In this document: one piece after another, positions 149 through 31,402 of the stretch
Layout: every line of letters starts with the position of its first letter
Position numbering within the stretch: position 1 is the first letter of the stretch
From: Sulfurimonas indica
Lineage (GTDB): Bacteria; Campylobacterota; Campylobacteria; Campylobacterales; Sulfurimonadaceae
Length of the DNA stretch: 33,645 nucleotides
Assembly: GCF_009192995.1 (NCBI RefSeq)
Contig: NZ_SDID01000022.1
Location: 1 to 33,645, forward strand
Reading direction: 5' to 3'
The notes under the pieces: model-generated
What the model was told of the DNA's origin: nothing
The model's input: the letters and a program-made list of their open reading frames with translations, nothing else
Database searches by the model: none
Translations under genes and position numbers: made by a program

Positions 149-269
149 TTTACTTACATATATAAAATTAATCAATCATTGTAATTAAGAGTGCTGCTCT
201 TTATATTATTTAATAGCTACTTTAAAAGAGTGTGTATTTTTGTAAATATAGTTGAAAGTTTGGGGAGAT

Positions 270-24626: not shown

Positions 24627-26057
24627 ATGAATATATTAAAAGAGGCAAAGCCAAATATCCTTGTAGTTGGGGATTTGATGATAGACCATTACCTATGGGG
24701 GAGTTGTGAGAGAATTTCTCCTGAAGCACCTGTACAGGTAGTAGACATCGCAAAAGAGACAACAGTTCTTGGTGGGGCAGGAAATGTTATCAACAACTTA
24801 AAAGCTCTTGGTGCGAGTGTGAGTGTTGCTGGTGTTATAGGGGATGATCCCAATGGTGATGAACTGCGTGCAATGTTGCGAGATATTGCTGTTGATGAAA
24901 GTAAACTTATAGTGCAGCATGATAGAAAAACTTCAAAGAAGAGCCGTATTATTGCCGTAAGCCAGCAGATACTTCGTTATGATAAAGAGAGTAAAGAAGA
25001 TATTACAGAAGATTCTGTAGAGAGTATCATGAAATCTCTGCGTGAGGATATTAAAAGTTTCGATGCTGTAATTCTTTCTGATTATGGAAAAGGTGTCTTG
25101 ACTCCTTCTCTCACGCAGGCCATCATACAAGCCGCAAAAGCAGAAGGTGTCCGTGTCCTTGTTGATCCAAAAGGGAGTGACTTCTCAAAATATCGTGGAG
25201 CTACACTGCTCACACCAAATAAAAAAGAGGCACAGCTTGCAACAGGCATTGAGATAAATGATGAAGCTTCACTTAAAAAGGCACTTTTAAAACTAAAAGG
25301 TGAGTGTGATTTAGAGATTTCACTTATTACGCTCTCTGAAGATGGAATCGCTATCTATGACAGTGATCTCAAAAGATTTCCAACAGTTGCCAAAGAGGTC
25401 TTTGATGTAACAGGTGCAGGTGATACGGTCATAGCTTCTATAGCCTATGCTCTCTCAGCTGGAAAAAACATCGATGAAACAGCAAAATTCGCAAACTTGG
25501 CTGCTGGTGTTGTCGTTGGAAAAATCGGGAGTGCAACGGTTACTATTGATGAGATAGAGGAGTATGAAGCAAGTCTTCATAAAAGTACTTCTGATGCACA
25601 CATAAAAACTTTTGAAGAGATTGATGCAATAGTAAAACGTTATAAGGCAAACGGGAAAAAAGTTGTTTTTACAAATGGCTGCTTTGATATCTTGCATGTA
25701 GGGCATGTAAAGTACTTACAAATTGCAAAGAGTTTTGGAGACATCTTGATAGTAGGACTTAACTCAGATGCCTCGGTTTCACGTCTTAAAGGGCCAACAC
25801 GACCTGTAAATGTAGCCCAGGACAGAGCATACCTACTTGCAGCACTTGAAGCAGTGGACTTTGTAGTGCCATTTGAAGAAGATACACCTTATGAGCTTAT
25901 TAAAATGATAGCACCGGATGTTTTGGTCAAAGGCGGTGATTATGAAGGTAAAAAAGTAGTCGGTACAGAATTTGCTAGAGAGTTAAAACTTGTGGACTTT
26001 GTCGATGGCAAAAGTACAACAAAAACTATAGAAAAGATACAAGGAAAGACATGTTAA
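24627..26057 (+). CDS. hldE: Bifunctional heptose 7-phosphate kinase / heptose 1-phosphate adenylyltransferase
   Basis: This 476-residue protein joins two enzymes. A ribokinase-like domain (about residues 1-315) has Gly-Ala-Gly-Asp266 as its anion hole and catalytic base. A nucleotidyltransferase domain (about 340-476) has Thr-Asn-Gly-Cys-Phe-Asp-Ile-Leu-His-Val-Gly-His (349-360) with the HxGH motif. It phosphorylates heptose 7-phosphate at C1, then, after GmhB acts, attaches AMP to give ADP-heptose. Its intermediates, heptose bisphosphate and ADP-heptose, are known bacterial signals for the ALPK1 pathway in animal cells. The fused form is usual in this phylum. It overlaps the next gene by seven bases. 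Confidence 0.96.
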   Translation: MNILKEAKPNILVVGDLMIDHYLWGSCERISPEAPVQVVDIAKETTVLGGAGNVINNLKALGASVSVAGVIGDDPNGDELRAMLRDIAVDESKLIVQHDRKTSKKSRIIAVSQQILRYDKESKEDITEDSVESIMKSLREDIKSFDAVILSDYGKGVLTPSLTQAIIQAAKAEGVRVLVDPKGSDFSKYRGATLLTPNKKEAQLATGIEINDEASLKKALLKLKGECDLEISLITLSEDGIAIYDSDLKRFPTVAKEVFDVTGAGDTVIASIAYALSAGKNIDETAKFANLAAGVVVGKIGSATVTIDEIEEYEASLHKSTSDAHIKTFEEIDAIVKRYKANGKKVVFTNGCFDILHVGHVKYLQIAKSFGDILIVGLNSDASVSRLKGPTRPVNVAQDRAYLLAALEAVDFVVPFEEDTPYELIKMIAPDVLVKGGDYEGKKVVGTEFARELKLVDFVDGKSTTKTIEKIQGKTC

Positions 26058-26656
26058 AGAAAATTACACTTCTTGGTGCAACAGCATTAACAGCTTTTGC
26101 TCTTAATACGGGTGAGATCAATATCAATAATAAAGATTTAGAAGTAAGCGGACAGTTCGATGTTGGACAGTTTAATGAAGCTGTAGAACCAAATACAATG
26201 TTCGTAGGTGCAAAGTTTTTAAATGCGGATGAGAAACACTCTGATAATGAGCGAGTAAATTTAGACCCATATTTTGAAGCAAACTTCTTGATGATGAGAC
26301 CAATTGGTAATCAAGGTATGCGAGTAGGAATGGGTGCAAAAATAAACTTTACAAAAAACTTTACATCAGTACCTTTAGGTTTACAGTTTGCATATAAAAT
26401 TCCAGCAAACAGCTACGTACCAATGTACTTAAATGGTGAACTTTACTATGCACCAAGTGTTCTCTCATTTAGTGATGCAGACAGCTTTTTAGAGTATCGT
26501 TTAAGCTATGATATTGAGATTATCGATAATGGTAGAATAACGCTAGGATACCGTTCTATGGATACAAACTACAAAGCAAACAAAGGGTACTCTTCTACAG
26601 GTGGAGATTTTAATTATAATTCGTACTGGTATGTCGGATTTAAAGTAGGTTTTTAA
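26051..26656 (+). CDS. YfaZ-like outer-membrane beta-barrel protein
   Basis: This 201-residue protein has a signal peptide (about residues 1-17, ending Thr-Ala-Phe-Ala) and alternating amphipathic strands rich in Tyr and Gly. It ends in Val-Gly-Phe-Lys-Val-Gly-Phe, with the terminal Phe used in barrel assembly. The internal Met-Gly-Ala-Lys-Ile-Asn-Phe and Gly-Leu-Gln-Phe-Ala-Tyr-Lys strands suggest a small barrel, probably of the YfaZ type, whose function is unknown. AAGGAAAG within the end of hldE is the ribosome site, and the coding regions overlap by seven bases, so it is produced with the heptose enzymes. The YfaZ assignment is by general resemblance. Confidence 0.7.
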   Translation: MLKKITLLGATALTAFALNTGEININNKDLEVSGQFDVGQFNEAVEPNTMFVGAKFLNADEKHSDNERVNLDPYFEANFLMMRPIGNQGMRVGMGAKINFTKNFTSVPLGLQFAYKIPANSYVPMYLNGELYYAPSVLSFSDADSFLEYRLSYDIEIIDNGRITLGYRSMDTNYKANKGYSSTGGDFNYNSYWYVGFKVGF

Positions 26657-27636
26657 ACTTTTAGATCCAAGTTATTAACAGCCTCGATAACTTCAGAGGC
26701 TGTAATCGTTGTCATACACTCATGATGCTCTAGTGGGCACTCTCTTTTCATACATGGACTGCAATCCATTTCATGTCTAACAATAATACTTTTTTCATTC
26801 ATCCACTGTGAAGTCTCTTTATATTTTGTCGGACCAAAAATGGCCACAGTTGGAACTTGATAAGCAGCTGCAACGTGCATTGGACCACTGTCATTGGTTA
26901 TAAAGAGTGAACATCCTCCGATATTACTGCACAGTTCTTCAATGGTAGTTTTTCCTGCTAAATTTGTGTAGTTGGTAATACCTAGTTTTTTGAGATTTTC
27001 TTCAATTTCTGCTGCCATTTCCACTTCATTTGGACCACCAAAGATGATGATGTCATATCTATTGCTAAAGTGTGCTGCCACGGCAGCAAAGCGTTCAGGA
27101 TACCATCTTTTGGCACTTCCATACGTTGCTCCTGCATTGATGCCAAGCATTGGCTTGCCAAACTTCTTAGGCTCGATGTAGAGTTTGAGCGGTGGGATTT
27201 CATCTTTGGTAAAATCATTTATATTAACCATAGCAAGCTGAGAATATTGCTCCACAAGATGTTGATTTGTCACTATCTTTGGTGTATGAGAGAGTAAAAA
27301 TCGTGAATGCCAAGACTCTCTAGCGATGGTTAGGACTGTAGTTGTAAAATAGAGTAGAAGTGAAGAGTGGAGTTGATTTCTAAATGTGACAGCAAGATTA
27401 AAAACACCCAACTTTTTTGCAAATTTATAGGTAGCCATAAGACGTGAAGAAGCTTTTTTTGTCTCATCAACGACAGCCCTTTGGCAAAGTGGATGATGTT
27501 TAAGTGCTTCAATACTGACATAACTTCCAACAAAGGTAAATCTCGCACTAGGATGTTTCTTTGCCAAAAGCTCAATAGCCGGTGTCGCCATGATGGCATC
27601 ACCAAGCCAGTTTGGAAGGATAACTAAGATTCTCAT
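26653..27636 (-). CDS. waaF: LPS heptosyltransferase II (GT9)
   Basis: This 327-residue GT9 enzyme should add the second L-glycero-D-manno-heptose to the LPS inner core, using the ADP-heptose made by neighbouring genes. It opens Ile-Leu-Val-Ile-Leu-Pro-Asn-Trp-Leu-Gly-Asp (Gly12, Asp13), a WaaF signature. Ala-Gly-Ala-Thr-Tyr-Gly-Ser-Ala-Lys-Arg-Trp is typical of WaaF, and Thr-Asn-Asp-Ser-Gly-Pro-Met-His forms the ADP-heptose site. Its ATG overlaps the stop of the upstream glycosidase-like gene (ATGA), so the two form a unit. The 3' end overlaps that of the YfaZ-like gene by four bases. Confidence 0.92.
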   Translation of the reverse strand: MRILVILPNWLGDAIMATPAIELLAKKHPSARFTFVGSYVSIEALKHHPLCQRAVVDETKKASSRLMATYKFAKKLGVFNLAVTFRNQLHSSLLLYFTTTVLTIARESWHSRFLLSHTPKIVTNQHLVEQYSQLAMVNINDFTKDEIPPLKLYIEPKKFGKPMLGINAGATYGSAKRWYPERFAAVAAHFSNRYDIIIFGGPNEVEMAAEIEENLKKLGITNYTNLAGKTTIEELCSNIGGCSLFITNDSGPMHVAAAYQVPTVAIFGPTKYKETSQWMNEKSIIVRHEMDCSPCMKRECPLEHHECMTTITASEVIEAVNNLDLKV

Positions 27637-28925
27637 TCTATACGCTCACTTGCATTGACTTTTTTACCAACCTCTTTGGTGATGAAGATATAGATAGGAG
27701 AGTCATTGATATCTAAAATCTCATTTTTTAAACGTTTTCCAGTTTTAGAGTAGACTTCAAAAAAATCTTCATTTTTGAGTGTTGTAGGCTTTAGTGACCA
27801 GTGAATCTGTAGGAGTTGTTCATCGACCCAGAGTTGAATGATATAGTAGCCCCGTTTAATATCAAGACGTAAAAATTGGGCATTTTGAAGTGTTTGTATC
27901 ATCTGTTTATAAACATAAAAGGCTTCTCTTTTTTTGATGCTATCTCGATTGTCTACAAGACCATAACCAGGAGCTATGAGCTGATGCCATGATACAGAAT
28001 CAACCTGTTGGCTTGCAAAGGCTAAAAGATAATAACGCAGCATATAATTGGCGTAAACCTCTTCGCTCACGCACTCATATTCACTTGTTGGTGCATAGGG
28101 TGCTGTACCACTGAGTGGCCAGTTTACTTCTGTAATGTGAAGCTCCTGTTTTGTCTTTGGACTGAGCCATACCATAGTACTTAAAAGAGCGAGTTTATCG
28201 GTAAGTGAGAATCCTAGTTGTGTGTTTTCCGGTGCGCCCCGTCTATCAACATATAAAAGTGCTGCAATACCGTCATATTTGCACTTACAAAAGTTAAAGA
28301 GTGTATGGGCAGTGTAGTGAAATTCAAAATCAATCACATCACTTCCGATGATTTTAATGTTCGGAAACTGCTTTTGTTTTAGATTGAAAGCCACTTTATA
28401 AAATGCGAGATATTCTCTGACAGAAAAAAAGCCCCACTTTGCGCGGTTAATGGTTGAGCCGATTTCAAAGATATCTACGATATCGTCTAGTTCTTGAAAT
28501 ATCTGCGTGAGGTTTTCTCTCAAAAGTGCTAAATCTTCGATATTTTCTCTATCTTGTAAAATTTTCAGGGTTATTTTTTTATTTTTGTACTTTGAGAGAA
28601 ACTCTTTTAGTTGCGGCAATTTTTCCATTTCCCAGAGTTTAAAGCGTGTTAGGATACTCTCTACACCAAGTTCTTCTATCATATCAGTTGTTGCGTGAGC
28701 ATCTCTTTGGAAGTCAATGCCTAAAGAGAAGAACTGTTTTGACTCTATCTCTTTTCTCTTTATAAAAGGGGTAGCAAGCATGGAAAGTGGCAGTAAAATA
28801 AGTGCACTTAAAAAAGTGTAGAGTAGGGATGGCAACTCTTTTTTACGCATCGATTTTTTAAAAGTTCTGTCTTGAAGTAGTGCTGGTTGGTCGGAATAAT
28901 CATCCCAGGAAAACGGTTTTTTCAT
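27633..28925 (-). CDS. Membrane-anchored TIM-barrel protein, degenerate clan A glycosidase-like
   Basis: This 430-residue protein has a basic cytoplasmic tail, one membrane anchor (about residues 34-54) and a large outer domain resembling a clan A glycoside hydrolase. Several segments fit such a barrel: Leu-Thr-Arg-Phe (92-95), Phe-Glu-Ile-Gly-Ser-Thr-Ile-Asn-Arg (153-161), His-Ile-Thr-Glu266-Val-Asn-Trp (263-269) and Val-Ser-Trp-His-Gln (311-315). Glu266 is a candidate nucleophile. Where active enzymes have Asn-Glu after strand 4, this protein reads Ser157-Thr158, so the acid/base Glu seems lost. It is translationally coupled to waaF, suggesting work on LPS or exopolysaccharide, perhaps binding rather than cleaving. 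The family assignment is by eye. The ATG lacks a ribosome site. Confidence 0.6.
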   Translation of the reverse strand: MKKPFSWDDYSDQPALLQDRTFKKSMRKKELPSLLYTFLSALILLPLSMLATPFIKRKEIESKQFFSLGIDFQRDAHATTDMIEELGVESILTRFKLWEMEKLPQLKEFLSKYKNKKITLKILQDRENIEDLALLRENLTQIFQELDDIVDIFEIGSTINRAKWGFFSVREYLAFYKVAFNLKQKQFPNIKIIGSDVIDFEFHYTAHTLFNFCKCKYDGIAALLYVDRRGAPENTQLGFSLTDKLALLSTMVWLSPKTKQELHITEVNWPLSGTAPYAPTSEYECVSEEVYANYMLRYYLLAFASQQVDSVSWHQLIAPGYGLVDNRDSIKKREAFYVYKQMIQTLQNAQFLRLDIKRGYYIIQLWVDEQLLQIHWSLKPTTLKNEDFFEVYSKTGKRLKNEILDINDSPIYIFITKEVGKKVNASERIE

Positions 28926-28962: not shown

Positions 28963-29928
28963 ATGAATATATTAGTTGTACGAACAGATAAGCTCGGAGA
29001 CTTTATAACGGCACTGCCAAGCTTTTATGTCTTAAAGCATCATAGTCCAAAAAACCGCATCATAGCCCTTGTAGCTCCACTTAATCGCTCTTTGGCCCAG
29101 ACGTGTGATTTTATAGATGAGGTTATAGTTGATGATGGTAAAAGTTCTCTCTTTGCACTTTCACAAAAATTACAAGCTGCTAAGATAGATGCTTCTGTTA
29201 CACTCTTTTCAAATACACGTGTGGCTCTGGCTCAGTTTTTTGCACGCATACCAAAACGCATCGCTCCTGCTACTAAAATCGCACAGATTTTTTACAACAA
29301 AAGAGTGGTGCAGCGGCGCAGTGAAGTCAAGATGGCTGAGTTTGAGTATAATCTCGCGCTCACGCAGGCACTATTTTCAGACATTTCACTCGATTTTCCA
29401 AAGCCGCTTTTACATTTTGATGATGCGAAAAAGGTCTATGAAGTTTTTTGTGCAAATTATGACATTACACGCGATGTTATCGCTTTTCATGTTGGTTTTG
29501 GTGGATCATCTGATGCAAATTGGAACCTTGATGAGTATGAAGAGCTCATTCGTGTAAAACTACGTGATAAAAAGTATCAGATCGTGCTTACTTTCGGTCC
29601 TGATGAAAAAGAGCTTTATGAAGAGATGCAAAACCGTCTCATGGGTGAGGGTGTTGTCTTTTACCTCTCACTTGATGGCATTGTCACCTTTGCAAAGTTG
29701 CTGAGTCAATTTAAACTTTTTGTCTCTACTTCAACAGGTACATATCATCTGGCTTCTTTAGTGGGGTGTCCTACAATAACCTTTTTTGGTGACAGCAAAT
29801 TTGCAAGTGCTGCAAGATGGAAAAGTATAGGGGATGCAAAACTGCAAAAGCACTATATGTTACCTATTGATGAGAGTAAAAGAAAAGTGATATTTGAGGA
29901 AGTAAAGCAAGAACTACTTGCCTTTTAG
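28963..29928 (+). CDS. GT9-family heptosyltransferase-like protein
   Basis: This 321-residue GT9 protein starts Asn-Ile-Leu-Val-Val-Arg-Thr-Asp-Lys-Leu-Gly-Asp (Gly12, Asp13), the family opening. Ser-Thr-Ser-Thr-Gly-Thr-Tyr-His-Leu-Ala (about residues 250-259) stands where the ADP-heptose site lies. It probably adds a heptose or related sugar to the core. It lacks the Trp-Leu-Gly-Asp of WaaF and may be WaaC or a later transferase. It is divergent from the glycosidase-like gene, and its last 15 bases overlap the end of the convergent GT2 gene. No ribosome site is visible before the ATG. Confidence 0.85.
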   Translation: MNILVVRTDKLGDFITALPSFYVLKHHSPKNRIIALVAPLNRSLAQTCDFIDEVIVDDGKSSLFALSQKLQAAKIDASVTLFSNTRVALAQFFARIPKRIAPATKIAQIFYNKRVVQRRSEVKMAEFEYNLALTQALFSDISLDFPKPLLHFDDAKKVYEVFCANYDITRDVIAFHVGFGGSSDANWNLDEYEELIRVKLRDKKYQIVLTFGPDEKELYEEMQNRLMGEGVVFYLSLDGIVTFAKLLSQFKLFVSTSTGTYHLASLVGCPTITFFGDSKFASAARWKSIGDAKLQKHYMLPIDESKRKVIFEEVKQELLAF

Positions 29929-30672
29929 CTCTTTGTTTAGTTCATAGAGTTTGATGTACTTGTAAAAATTTGTCACCATATGTGAGTATGCGATAACAAG
30001 CCCTACATATCCGTCACGAAATCCCTGTTTGAAAAAGTAGGTCTTGATAAATGAGTAGGCTCCGTTAAAGAAGGCCTTAGCGGGTGAGGAGCTCTTTTTG
30101 CCTGCATTGTTCTTTGCAAAGAGGGTAGAGTAGGTATTGGCTTTATTAACAAACTGCTCGATGCTTTGGTAGCTGTAGTGAAGCATATTTCCCTCTAAGA
30201 GCTCCGTTTGAAGCTCTTCTGTAATGATATCTTCATGGACATCATTGTCATTGTATTTTGTTACACTTTTGTTGTAGAGTCGTTTTATCTTCTGGTTGTT
30301 CCAACCGCAGTGTTTTACTTCTATGTCTTTGTAAAAGGCACGAAAGTTAAGAATGTAAACTGTGTTTGCATCGAGTTTCTTTGTAGCAAGTACCTCACGC
30401 AGCTTCTTATCAATAACTTCATCACTGTCAACGATTAAAATCCACTCATTTTTGGCATAACTTGCCGCCTTGTTCTTACTCCAGCCAAAACCTCTAAACT
30501 CGCCCTCTATTAAGTTTACATTGGTAAAACTTTTTGCAATCTCCATGGTTCTATCAGTTGAACCATTGTCATAAACGACTACATCCTCAAAATCTTGCAG
30601 CGCCTGAAGGGTCTTTTGAATGGTTGTTTCATTGTTTTTAGCAAGTACTACGGCAGATATATTACCAATCAA
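29914..30672 (-). CDS. GT2-family glycosyltransferase, WaaE/KdtX-like
   Basis: This 252-residue GT-A enzyme has Asp-Asn-Gly-Ser-Thr-Asp-Arg-Thr (35-42) and the metal-binding Asp82-Ser-Asp84-Glu for a nucleotide sugar. The Cys-Gly-Trp-Asn-Asn-Gln-Lys-Ile-Lys-Arg-Leu and Val-His-Glu-Asp segments (about 116-146) resemble WaaE/KdtX inner-core beta-glucosyltransferases. A hydrophobic C-terminal region suggests membrane association. The start overlaps the end of the kinase gene by 11 bases, so kinase and transferase are co-translated. The donor sugar is not certain. Confidence 0.85.
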   Translation of the reverse strand: MIGNISAVVLAKNNETTIQKTLQALQDFEDVVVYDNGSTDRTMEIAKSFTNVNLIEGEFRGFGWSKNKAASYAKNEWILIVDSDEVIDKKLREVLATKKLDANTVYILNFRAFYKDIEVKHCGWNNQKIKRLYNKSVTKYNDNDVHEDIITEELQTELLEGNMLHYSYQSIEQFVNKANTYSTLFAKNNAGKKSSSPAKAFFNGAYSFIKTYFFKQGFRDGYVGLVIAYSHMVTNFYKYIKLYELNKELKGK

Positions 30673-31402
30673 TCTCTTTTCCTTTGAGTCTTTTTTTGAA
30701 ATTTTTTATCTTTTTGTTCTGCAGGGAGTAGTGCAGTGCTTTTTGTACAAAGTCAGAACACTCTGTGTACTCTTTTGCATAGGCTGTTGCTATGCTTGTA
30801 AGCGCCTCTTCGCTTGCCCAGAGTTTTGAGAAGTTTTTGGCTCTCTCATCACAGGAGAGGGTGAAAAAACGCATACGATTGACATCGACTATCTTAAAAG
30901 TATAGTTGCCATTTTCTTTTTTGATGAGAATATTTCCAGGAGAGTAATCTTCATGAAATATTCCTGCATTATGCAGAGCAAGAGTAAACTTGGCAAAGGC
31001 TTTAAAAATGCTCTCTCTATTGGGAAAGTCTTTTTCTAGGAGAGGCTCACGAATGGTAAAGTCATAGATAAACTCCTCACTGACAAAGTAACTCTCATCT
31101 AGAAGACCGTTTTTAAAAAACTCAATATAACCTATGGGCGTAGGTGTAAAGTCACCAAGTTTGAGTGAGTAGTCATAGGATTTTTTTGCTTTGGAATCTT
31201 TAAAAAATGTATAAGCAATTTTATTAATGATATTTGGAACTTTAAAAGCTTTTACAACTGTAGAGACACCTTCATAAGGGATGACTTTTAGTTCATTACG
31301 TGCTTTATGGATGTTGTCTGTTTGGGTATGAAAATAGTTTTGGATATTTTTAAAAAAGTGTTCAAATTTCTCCTTATATTGAGGAGAGATAATATATTTC
31401 AT
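30662..31402 (-). CDS. WaaP/InaA-like LPS core kinase
   Basis: This 246-residue protein has a eukaryotic-like kinase fold of the lipopolysaccharide kinase family. A Val-Val-Lys51 strand gives the ATP-binding Lys, the catalytic loop is His150-Glu-Asp152-Tyr-Ser-Pro-Gly-Asn157, and the metal-binding Asp173 is in Ile-Val-Asp-Val-Asn. Such enzymes phosphorylate inner-core heptose or Kdo on the cytoplasmic face, strengthening the outer membrane. Tight coupling to the GT2 gene and the heptose neighbourhood support this role. Protein kinase activity cannot be excluded. A minus-strand TATAAT at 31440-31435 is a likely -10. Confidence 0.82.
   Translation of the reverse strand: MKYIISPQYKEKFEHFFKNIQNYFHTQTDNIHKARNELKVIPYEGVSTVVKAFKVPNIINKIAYTFFKDSKAKKSYDYSLKLGDFTPTPIGYIEFFKNGLLDESYFVSEEFIYDFTIREPLLEKDFPNRESIFKAFAKFTLALHNAGIFHEDYSPGNILIKKENGNYTFKIVDVNRMRFFTLSCDERAKNFSKLWASEEALTSIATAYAKEYTECSDFVQKALHYSLQNKKIKNFKKRLKGKEIDW

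Follow-up and report, generated by a model that had tools for sequence, protein, structure and literature searches.

The nearest known counterpart of the protein considered here is PslG of Pseudomonas aeruginosa, an endo-beta-glucanase of glycoside hydrolase family 39 (GH39), which is described as an inner-membrane protein encoded in a polysaccharide biosynthesis locus (PMC9075953), and for which the residues Asn164 and Glu165 and the nucleophile Glu276 are named (PMC11912335). The GH39 beta-xylosidases furnish the nearest solved structure, PDB entry 5jvk. Clan-A proteins which do without the acid/base residue include plant myrosinase, Gln variants of GH1 and Klotho, all of them GH1; in these the nucleophile is kept and the acid/base replaced, and the likeness to the present protein is one of analogy within the clan. 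We know of no such protein that is bacterial, membrane-anchored and encoded in a lipopolysaccharide (LPS) locus. Contig NZ_SDID01000022.1 of Sulfurimonas indica (assembly GCF_009192995.1; 33,645 nt, the whole stretch analysed, hereafter the window, on which all coordinates are based) carries, among LPS-core genes, a gene present in a single copy in this genome whose product appears to be a barrel of this clan with a retained nucleophile and no acid/base Glu. The features on which this description depends are:

27633..28925, minus strand: barrel gene, an intact open reading frame (ORF) with an ATG start, 430 aa
27885..28730, minus strand: predicted (beta/alpha)8 barrel, residues 66-347, from the model, with GH39 and PslG leading the VIA-align list
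27681..27881, minus strand: predicted C-terminal beta domain, residues 349-415, from the model
28452..28457, minus strand: Ser157-Thr158, apparently replacing the clan-A Asn-Glu pair (acid/base), by end mapping, position 158 being never Glu in 97 rows
28128..28130, minus strand: Glu266, putative retained nucleophile at the end of strand 7, kept in 97 of 97 proteins and located by end mapping

An AlphaFold2 model of the 430-aa protein, built with 23 sequences, reached a pLDDT of 85.9 and a pTM of 0.88. Its parts are a helix (31-54), eight barrel strands (b1-b4: 66-70, 90-96, 117-123, 152-155; b5-b8: 191-198, 219-223, 262-267, 310-313) and a beta-rich C-terminal part (349-415). The best VIA-align match is the GH39 enzyme 5jvk (Z 32.5, 336 residues aligned, 2.6 A), followed by PslG (9g17/5bx9/4zn2, Z 30.8-31.2, 347 aligned, 2.9 A, 13% identity), the barrel and C-terminal part being alike; the next rows, GH30 and GH1 enzymes, score Z 24.5 or less. 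Foldseek also places 5jvk first (E 2.4e-14), and in a viral structure library phage GH5-type barrels rank first, with nothing closer. On these rankings the protein, as modelled, is a clan-A barrel most similar to GH39 and PslG, C-terminal part included; the anchored clan-A TIM barrel that had been read from the letters alone is thus borne out by the AlphaFold2 model and VIA-align. Searches of the protein against Pfam, NCBIfam, PHROGs and PDB sequences gave no meaningful match. Nor was a family found when a 67-row alignment (A2, 66 relatives and the window's protein) or its members were compared with Pfam, NCBIfam and the PDB; the weak matches listed in all these searches were mutually unrelated. 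The GH39 model PF01229 is absent among the 23 Pfam families which the 67 family members matched at E <= 1, and it found nothing in 21 whole genomes, a search in which 2 of 14 controls matched (Caulobacter vibrioides and Bacteroides ihuae) and in which the detection of PslG by PF01229 was itself not tested.

The sequence at positions 153-161 is F-E-I-G-S-T-I-N-R, and the Glu within ITEVNWP stands at position 266. Because of the strand positions in the model, Ser157-Thr158 is placed after strand 4 and Glu266 at the end of strand 7, which agrees with the sequence-only reading. The first eight of these residues are in register with the GH39 signature, which we take to be F-E-x-W-N-E-P-[DN]. For a comparison of the two positions with known enzymes, residues 150-268 (from strand 4 to slightly beyond the Glu of strand 7) were folded alone and compared structurally, and the aligned ends were read on the assumption that the first nine and the last three aligned residues are free of gaps; residue 9 of the fragment is Thr158 and residue 117 is Glu266. 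So mapped, Thr158 coincides with the acid/base and Glu266 with the nucleophile, as far as the residue numbers go, for six of the seven enzymes with known numbers. The two land on 162/279 of 6uqj, 235/340 of 3ke0 (GCase), 160/278 of 2bs9, 160/277 of 1px8 and 165/263 of both 1ur0 and 2gft, and Thr158 lands on 168 of 8j3y. Further GCase rows (9fb2, 9fa6, 9fa3) give 274/379, that is, the 3ke0 numbers plus 39, an offset which presumably represents the leader.

As to the identity of these residues, Glu162 and Glu279 are given as the catalytic residues of XacXynB, and reference titles in the same paper name Glu160 as the acid/base of the B. stearothermophilus xylosidase and Glu277 as the nucleophile of the T. 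saccharolyticum xylosidase (PMC7242879); E235 and E340 are given as the acid/base and nucleophile of GCase (PMC7141376). The title of entry 2gft names E263 as nucleophile and that of 8j3y an E168Q mutant, E168 being assumed to be the acid/base. We take E278 of 2bs9, E160 of 1px8 and E165 of 1ur0 to be catalytic residues as well, and GCase and 1ur0 to belong to GH30 and GH53, respectively. The residue check leaves aside the mapped GH128 entries, 6gpa/6gp5, 8i0j and 8uwt; triose-phosphate isomerases and sialic-acid lyases among the mapped rows are uninformative on catalytic positions. PslG and 5jvk are not among the best 50 fragment matches listed, which says nothing against either. Since no GH39 sequence came from the PF01229 search of the 21 genomes, the correspondence with PslG is drawn by strand, motif and spacing rather than by direct mapping. 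By strand and spacing Glu266 would be the counterpart of Glu276 of PslG, in which Glu165 and Glu276 are 111 residues apart, as against 108 between Thr158 and Glu266; where PslG has Asn164-Glu165, this protein has Ser-Thr and its relatives mostly Thr-Thr or Asn-Ala. Set beside clan GH-A, the protein has the barrel and the strand-7 Glu nucleophile and is without a Glu acid/base after strand 4; set beside the PslG type of GH39, it has one of the two catalytic Glu, and likewise, compared with the GH39 beta-xylosidases, it has neither the acid/base Glu nor a PF01229 match.

Judged from the aligned relatives, the acid/base Glu is missing throughout the family while the pocket stays tightly constrained. 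By tblastn the protein is present in 106 of 108 loci (L107 and L108 gave no match). The alignment used here has 97 rows, the window's protein included; besides the window's own locus (L001) it leaves out L031, L043, L045 and L050, whose contigs are shared with other loci, and the fragments L053, L098, L104, L105 and L106, and it keeps L090 and L092, whose 3' ends are cut by the contig end. A smaller alignment, A1, holds 22 of 23 loci, the fragment L053 being left out. At position 158 the 97 proteins have Thr (64), Ala (31) or Val (2), and never Glu; at position 157 they have Ser (32), Thr (32), Asn (28), His (4) or Val (1). Conservation of the Ser-Thr pair as such, which the sequence-only reading had raised, therefore does not hold. 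Glu266, by contrast with the lost acid/base, is kept in all 97, so that the suggestion of a lost acid/base Glu beside a kept nucleophile is upheld by the model, by the end mapping and by the family. The pair 157/158 has undergone at least 19 changes on the tree of the 97. Asn-Ala occupies the branch split off by the midpoint root (a root used for drawing only) and several others, a pattern which would fit an ancestral loss from Asn-Glu to Asn-Ala, followed by drift.

Thirty-four residues, Glu266 included, are invariant in the 97 rows, and relatives down to 32% identity retain them. They include R94, N160, R161, K163, W164, D199, F200, E201, Y225, D227, R228, R229, N268, E284, W313 and H314, several of which form short motifs:

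28434..28451, minus strand: residues 159-164, I-N-R-A-K-W, of which N160, R161, K163 and W164 are invariant in the 97-row alignment
28323..28331, minus strand: Asp199-Phe200-Glu201, invariant, just after strand 5 (97-row alignment and model)
28239..28247, minus strand: Asp227-Arg228-Arg229, invariant, after strand 6 (97-row alignment)

With the catalytic face defined as the strand ends and beta-alpha loops (110 positions), 29 of the 34 invariant residues lie upon it. The mean frequency of the commonest residue is 0.80 on this face, against 0.54 in the opposite loops and in the helices. It is 0.34 in the C-terminal domain, partly because 34 of the 97 rows, with fewer than 375 aa, stop short of that domain, two of these (L090 and L092) being cut by contig ends. 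It is from position 158 never being Glu, together with this concentration of invariant residues, that the family-wide loss with a constrained pocket is deduced. The refuting condition attached to the sequence-only reading, another conserved Glu at the acid/base position, is only half removed: in the sequence mapping Thr158 occupies that position, but the invariant Asp199 and Glu201 lie just after the adjacent strand 5.

Two interpretations had been offered from the letters alone, a pseudo-glycosidase and an enzyme of altered chemistry. Both stand, and the 34 invariant residues, nucleophile included and 29 of them on the catalytic face, are a pattern which on alignment grounds favours altered chemistry over a plain pseudo-enzyme. 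Our preferred explanation, held with modest confidence, is that of a predicted inner-membrane enzyme, facing the periplasm, whose altered chemistry acts on LPS core or on a lipid-linked glycan. Its place of action would be the inner membrane, as it is for PslG, and its substrate a glycan under construction there, either the LPS core or a lipid-linked precursor. Attack by Glu266 on the anomeric carbon would give a covalent glycosyl-enzyme, which would be the natural use of the conserved residues. Departure of the leaving group, normally the task of the strand-4 Glu, would be aided by a relocated acid, the invariant Glu201 or Asp199 after strand 5; alternatively the leaving group may be one that departs unprotonated, for instance phosphate, kept in place by R94, R161, K163, R228 and R229, all of them invariant. 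A trimmed sugar would result or, without an acid/base, perhaps a transferred one. The same five basic residues hint at an anionic substrate, whether through a phosphate or the carboxylate of Kdo, and Asp227-Arg228-Arg229 may have a role in binding it. All five are situated at strand ends or in loops, a finding that takes no account of the basic residues of PslG; PslG cuts the neutral Psl polymer, whereas the present gene lies in an LPS-core locus.

Glu201 is thus a candidate replacement acid/base. In a special case of the preferred explanation the protein would be a retaining hydrolase, with Glu201 or Asp199 substituting for the strand-4 Glu, that would trim core or polysaccharide in the way that PslG acts on Psl. 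We regard this as doubtful: both residues are invariant in all 97 proteins and lie one strand over, yet we know of no clan-A enzyme with its acid/base on strand 5. PslG does offer a precedent, in that it is described as an inner-membrane hydrolase encoded in a biosynthesis locus (PMC9075953, PMC11912335).

Beta-glucosidases with Gln at the acid/base position are reported to act as transferases if a good leaving group and an acceptor are supplied (PMC1781453), which is a precedent for the preferred explanation. A bolder proposal is that the anchored periplasmic barrel is a glycosyl transferase, which would remove a sugar from a donor that carries it on phosphate (polyprenyl-phosphate sugar or core phospho-sugar), form the glycosyl-enzyme on Glu266 and pass the sugar to the LPS core. 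A general acid would then be unneeded because the leaving group would be phosphate, held by R94, R161, K163, R228 and R229. We consider this proposal improbable as it stands.

The location assumed in the preferred explanation depends upon the N-terminal part of the protein:

28836..28925, minus strand: N-terminal tail, residues 1-30, probably cytoplasmic, from the Lys and Arg bias and the YrbL fusion
28764..28835, minus strand: putative transmembrane helix, residues 31-54, from the model helix and hydrophobicity

Over residues 35-53 the mean Kyte-Doolittle value for the 97 rows is 1.8, and in 94 of them more Lys and Arg residues precede the helix than follow it. Within the tail W7, D8, S11, D12, Q13, P14 and K23 stand at 98-100% identity. 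In L094 and L095, from the near-identical genomes G057 and G153, a YrbL (PhoP regulatory network) domain (PF10707, 113 bits in L094) is fused in frame at the N-terminus, giving a product of 549 aa; YrbL is a kinase-like cytoplasmic protein. From the charge bias and this fusion we infer that the tail is probably inside and the barrel periplasmic. Among the 50 loci L054-L103, eight have as their nearest upstream gene a member of the similarity cluster of the YrbL fusion; the neighbour was checked in one of them, L065, and is a YrbL protein. Adjoining the YrbL-like protein of L065, upstream of the barrel gene, is a protein some 320 aa long that weakly matches P-loop ATPases (L065:2452-3411), and in L081, L082 and L087 this protein is fused with a YrbL-like part. 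Two loci, L052 (6001-7383) and L144 (genome G482), have some 40 extra in-frame residues just behind the anchor helix that are missing from the other 22 rows of A1; this is perhaps a small insertion.

The tail bears also on the main rival explanation, in which the barrel performs no chemistry and only binds LPS core or a lipid-linked glycan while the tail docks a cytoplasmic enzyme of core assembly, the whole serving as a scaffold or sensor. The absence of the acid/base Glu in 97 of 97 proteins agrees with it, as do the near-invariance of the first six tail residues named above and the attachment of the tail to a YrbL domain in two near-identical genomes. In addition, four genomes carry short descendants of the barrel protein (240-265 aa):

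L138:4869-5594, short descendant
L139:4796-5593, short descendant
L140:4630-5352, short descendant
L141:4989-5720, short descendant

Each has a hydrophobic segment at its N-terminus, a portion of the barrel's second half and the C-terminal domain; Glu266, Trp313-His314 and most of strands 1-5 are gone; those of L139 and L141 sit in LPS loci. The lineage can therefore drop catalysis and yet keep the remainder, a C-terminal domain without an active site, which sustains the scaffold interpretation. A glycan binder has, however, no evident need for Glu266 in all 97 proteins, nor for Asp199, Glu201, Asp227 and Glu284, and we rate the scaffold as possible though on the unlikely side.

The family was found in 82 of 298 sampled genomes of the order, representing 34 of 81 genera, one of them (G260) only through its short descendant. 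A phylum-wide search matched 98 of 397 genomes, all labelled as the same order or closer, the number of the 397 lying outside the order not being stated; as found here the family is limited to one order of Campylobacterota. The contig scan used exact short peptides of the window's protein and detects close relatives only. A whole gene is not seen in six of the 98: G322 (a threshold match, E 0.0098), G467, G480, G290, G260 (short) and G466 (contig end). Within the window's own family of organisms 50 of 51 genomes match, unlisted misses being taken as outside the family by kinship order. This near-universal presence, together with the retention of the 34 invariant residues down to 32% identity, speaks against a decaying glycosidase gene that is currently functionless; the acid/base is gone and truncated descendants exist, as decay would have it, and we nevertheless consider it very improbable indeed.

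The immediate neighbours of the barrel gene in the window are two members of glycosyltransferase family 9 (GT9):

26653..27636, minus strand: waaF (heptosyltransferase II), TIGR02195, 191.7 bits against a cut-off of 134.6
28963..29928, plus strand: GT9b, a second, divergent GT9 (heptosyltransferase-like) gene, PF01075, 56.7 bits

The barrel gene and waaF overlap by 4 bases (27633-27636), just as first reported. Adjacency in other loci was scored with mechanical ORFs of at least 90 aa and similarity clusters, "waaF" denoting the waaF-like GT9 cluster, in a sample of 72 loci (L031-L052 and L054-L103), some stretches of which are cut by contig ends. A waaF-like ORF comes next downstream on the same strand in 39 of the 72, and occurs anywhere in the stretch in 56; in 14 of the 29 loci L002-L030, counted separately, waaF is next downstream in 10. 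Other downstream neighbours are a PAP2 phosphatase, a sulfatase-domain (EptA-like) protein or another gene. A place among heptose and core genes is thus usual, not universal, and the idea that the gene might always adjoin waaF has to be given up.

With kinship ignored throughout, a GT9b match at E <= 1e-60, a cut chosen after viewing the list, was found in 44 of the 298 genomes, 43 of which also carry the barrel gene; at the search cut-off of 1e-20 the figure is 43 of 55. Conversely, 38 of the 81 genomes with the barrel gene have no strong GT9b match (E <= 1e-60). Wzy_C (O-antigen ligase/polymerase) was found in 72 of the 81 genomes with the gene (G260 uncounted) versus 143 of the 217 others. 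As an obligatory partner it was rejected, being absent from three nearly complete genomes which carry the gene (G247, G180 and G263).

A number of observations weigh against the preferred explanation. Glycosidases deprived of their acid/base Glu usually cease to hydrolyse. Foldseek places GH30 xylanases after 5jvk, with PslG not among the best 50 matches listed. The model of the fragment used for the end mapping is weak (pLDDT 62.1, matches of Z 5-7), its secondary structure being similar to that of the full model, and heparanase 8ohr, in which fragment residues 15..119 are aligned to 161..269, misses its catalytic residues, presumably E225/E343. The neighbouring Asn (Asn164 of PslG) drifts as well, at position 157. 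About 16 of the 72 loci are without a waaF-like ORF in the examined stretch. Finally, the short descendants make a non-catalytic role possible, at least where they occur.

The LPS-core neighbours of the gene comprise hldD, hldE, a YfaZ-like gene, waaF, two more GT9 genes, a GT2, a weak Kdo/WaaP-type kinase and a GT4. The YfaZ-like gene (26051-26656; PF07437, 26.5 bits versus 23) stands beside waaF or hldE in many Sulfurimonas loci. The kinase (30662-31402; PF06293, 22.0 bits versus a cut-off of 21.3) would fit a phosphorylated core.

No role for such a protein is named in the titles and opening lines of abstracts among the literature matches listed. In fold and setting the protein resembles PslG, a glycosidase of the inner membrane encoded in a polysaccharide locus (PMC9075953), the inner-membrane location of the present protein being predicted. 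What appears new is that the acid/base is absent throughout a family whose pocket is frozen, that the locus is one of LPS core, and that there exists a sizeable family, usually found among LPS-core genes, for which neither the Pfam nor the NCBIfam library has a model. If the protein is catalytic, it would show how a retaining glycosidase works, or turns transferase, after a lineage-wide loss of its acid/base, and it would add a step to LPS assembly; were it indeed a transferase, a glycoside-hydrolase fold would be doing the work of a glycosyltransferase in that assembly. If it is non-catalytic, the family would offer a natural series from full barrel to half-barrel remnant in which the evolution of a glycosidase into a binding protein may be followed.

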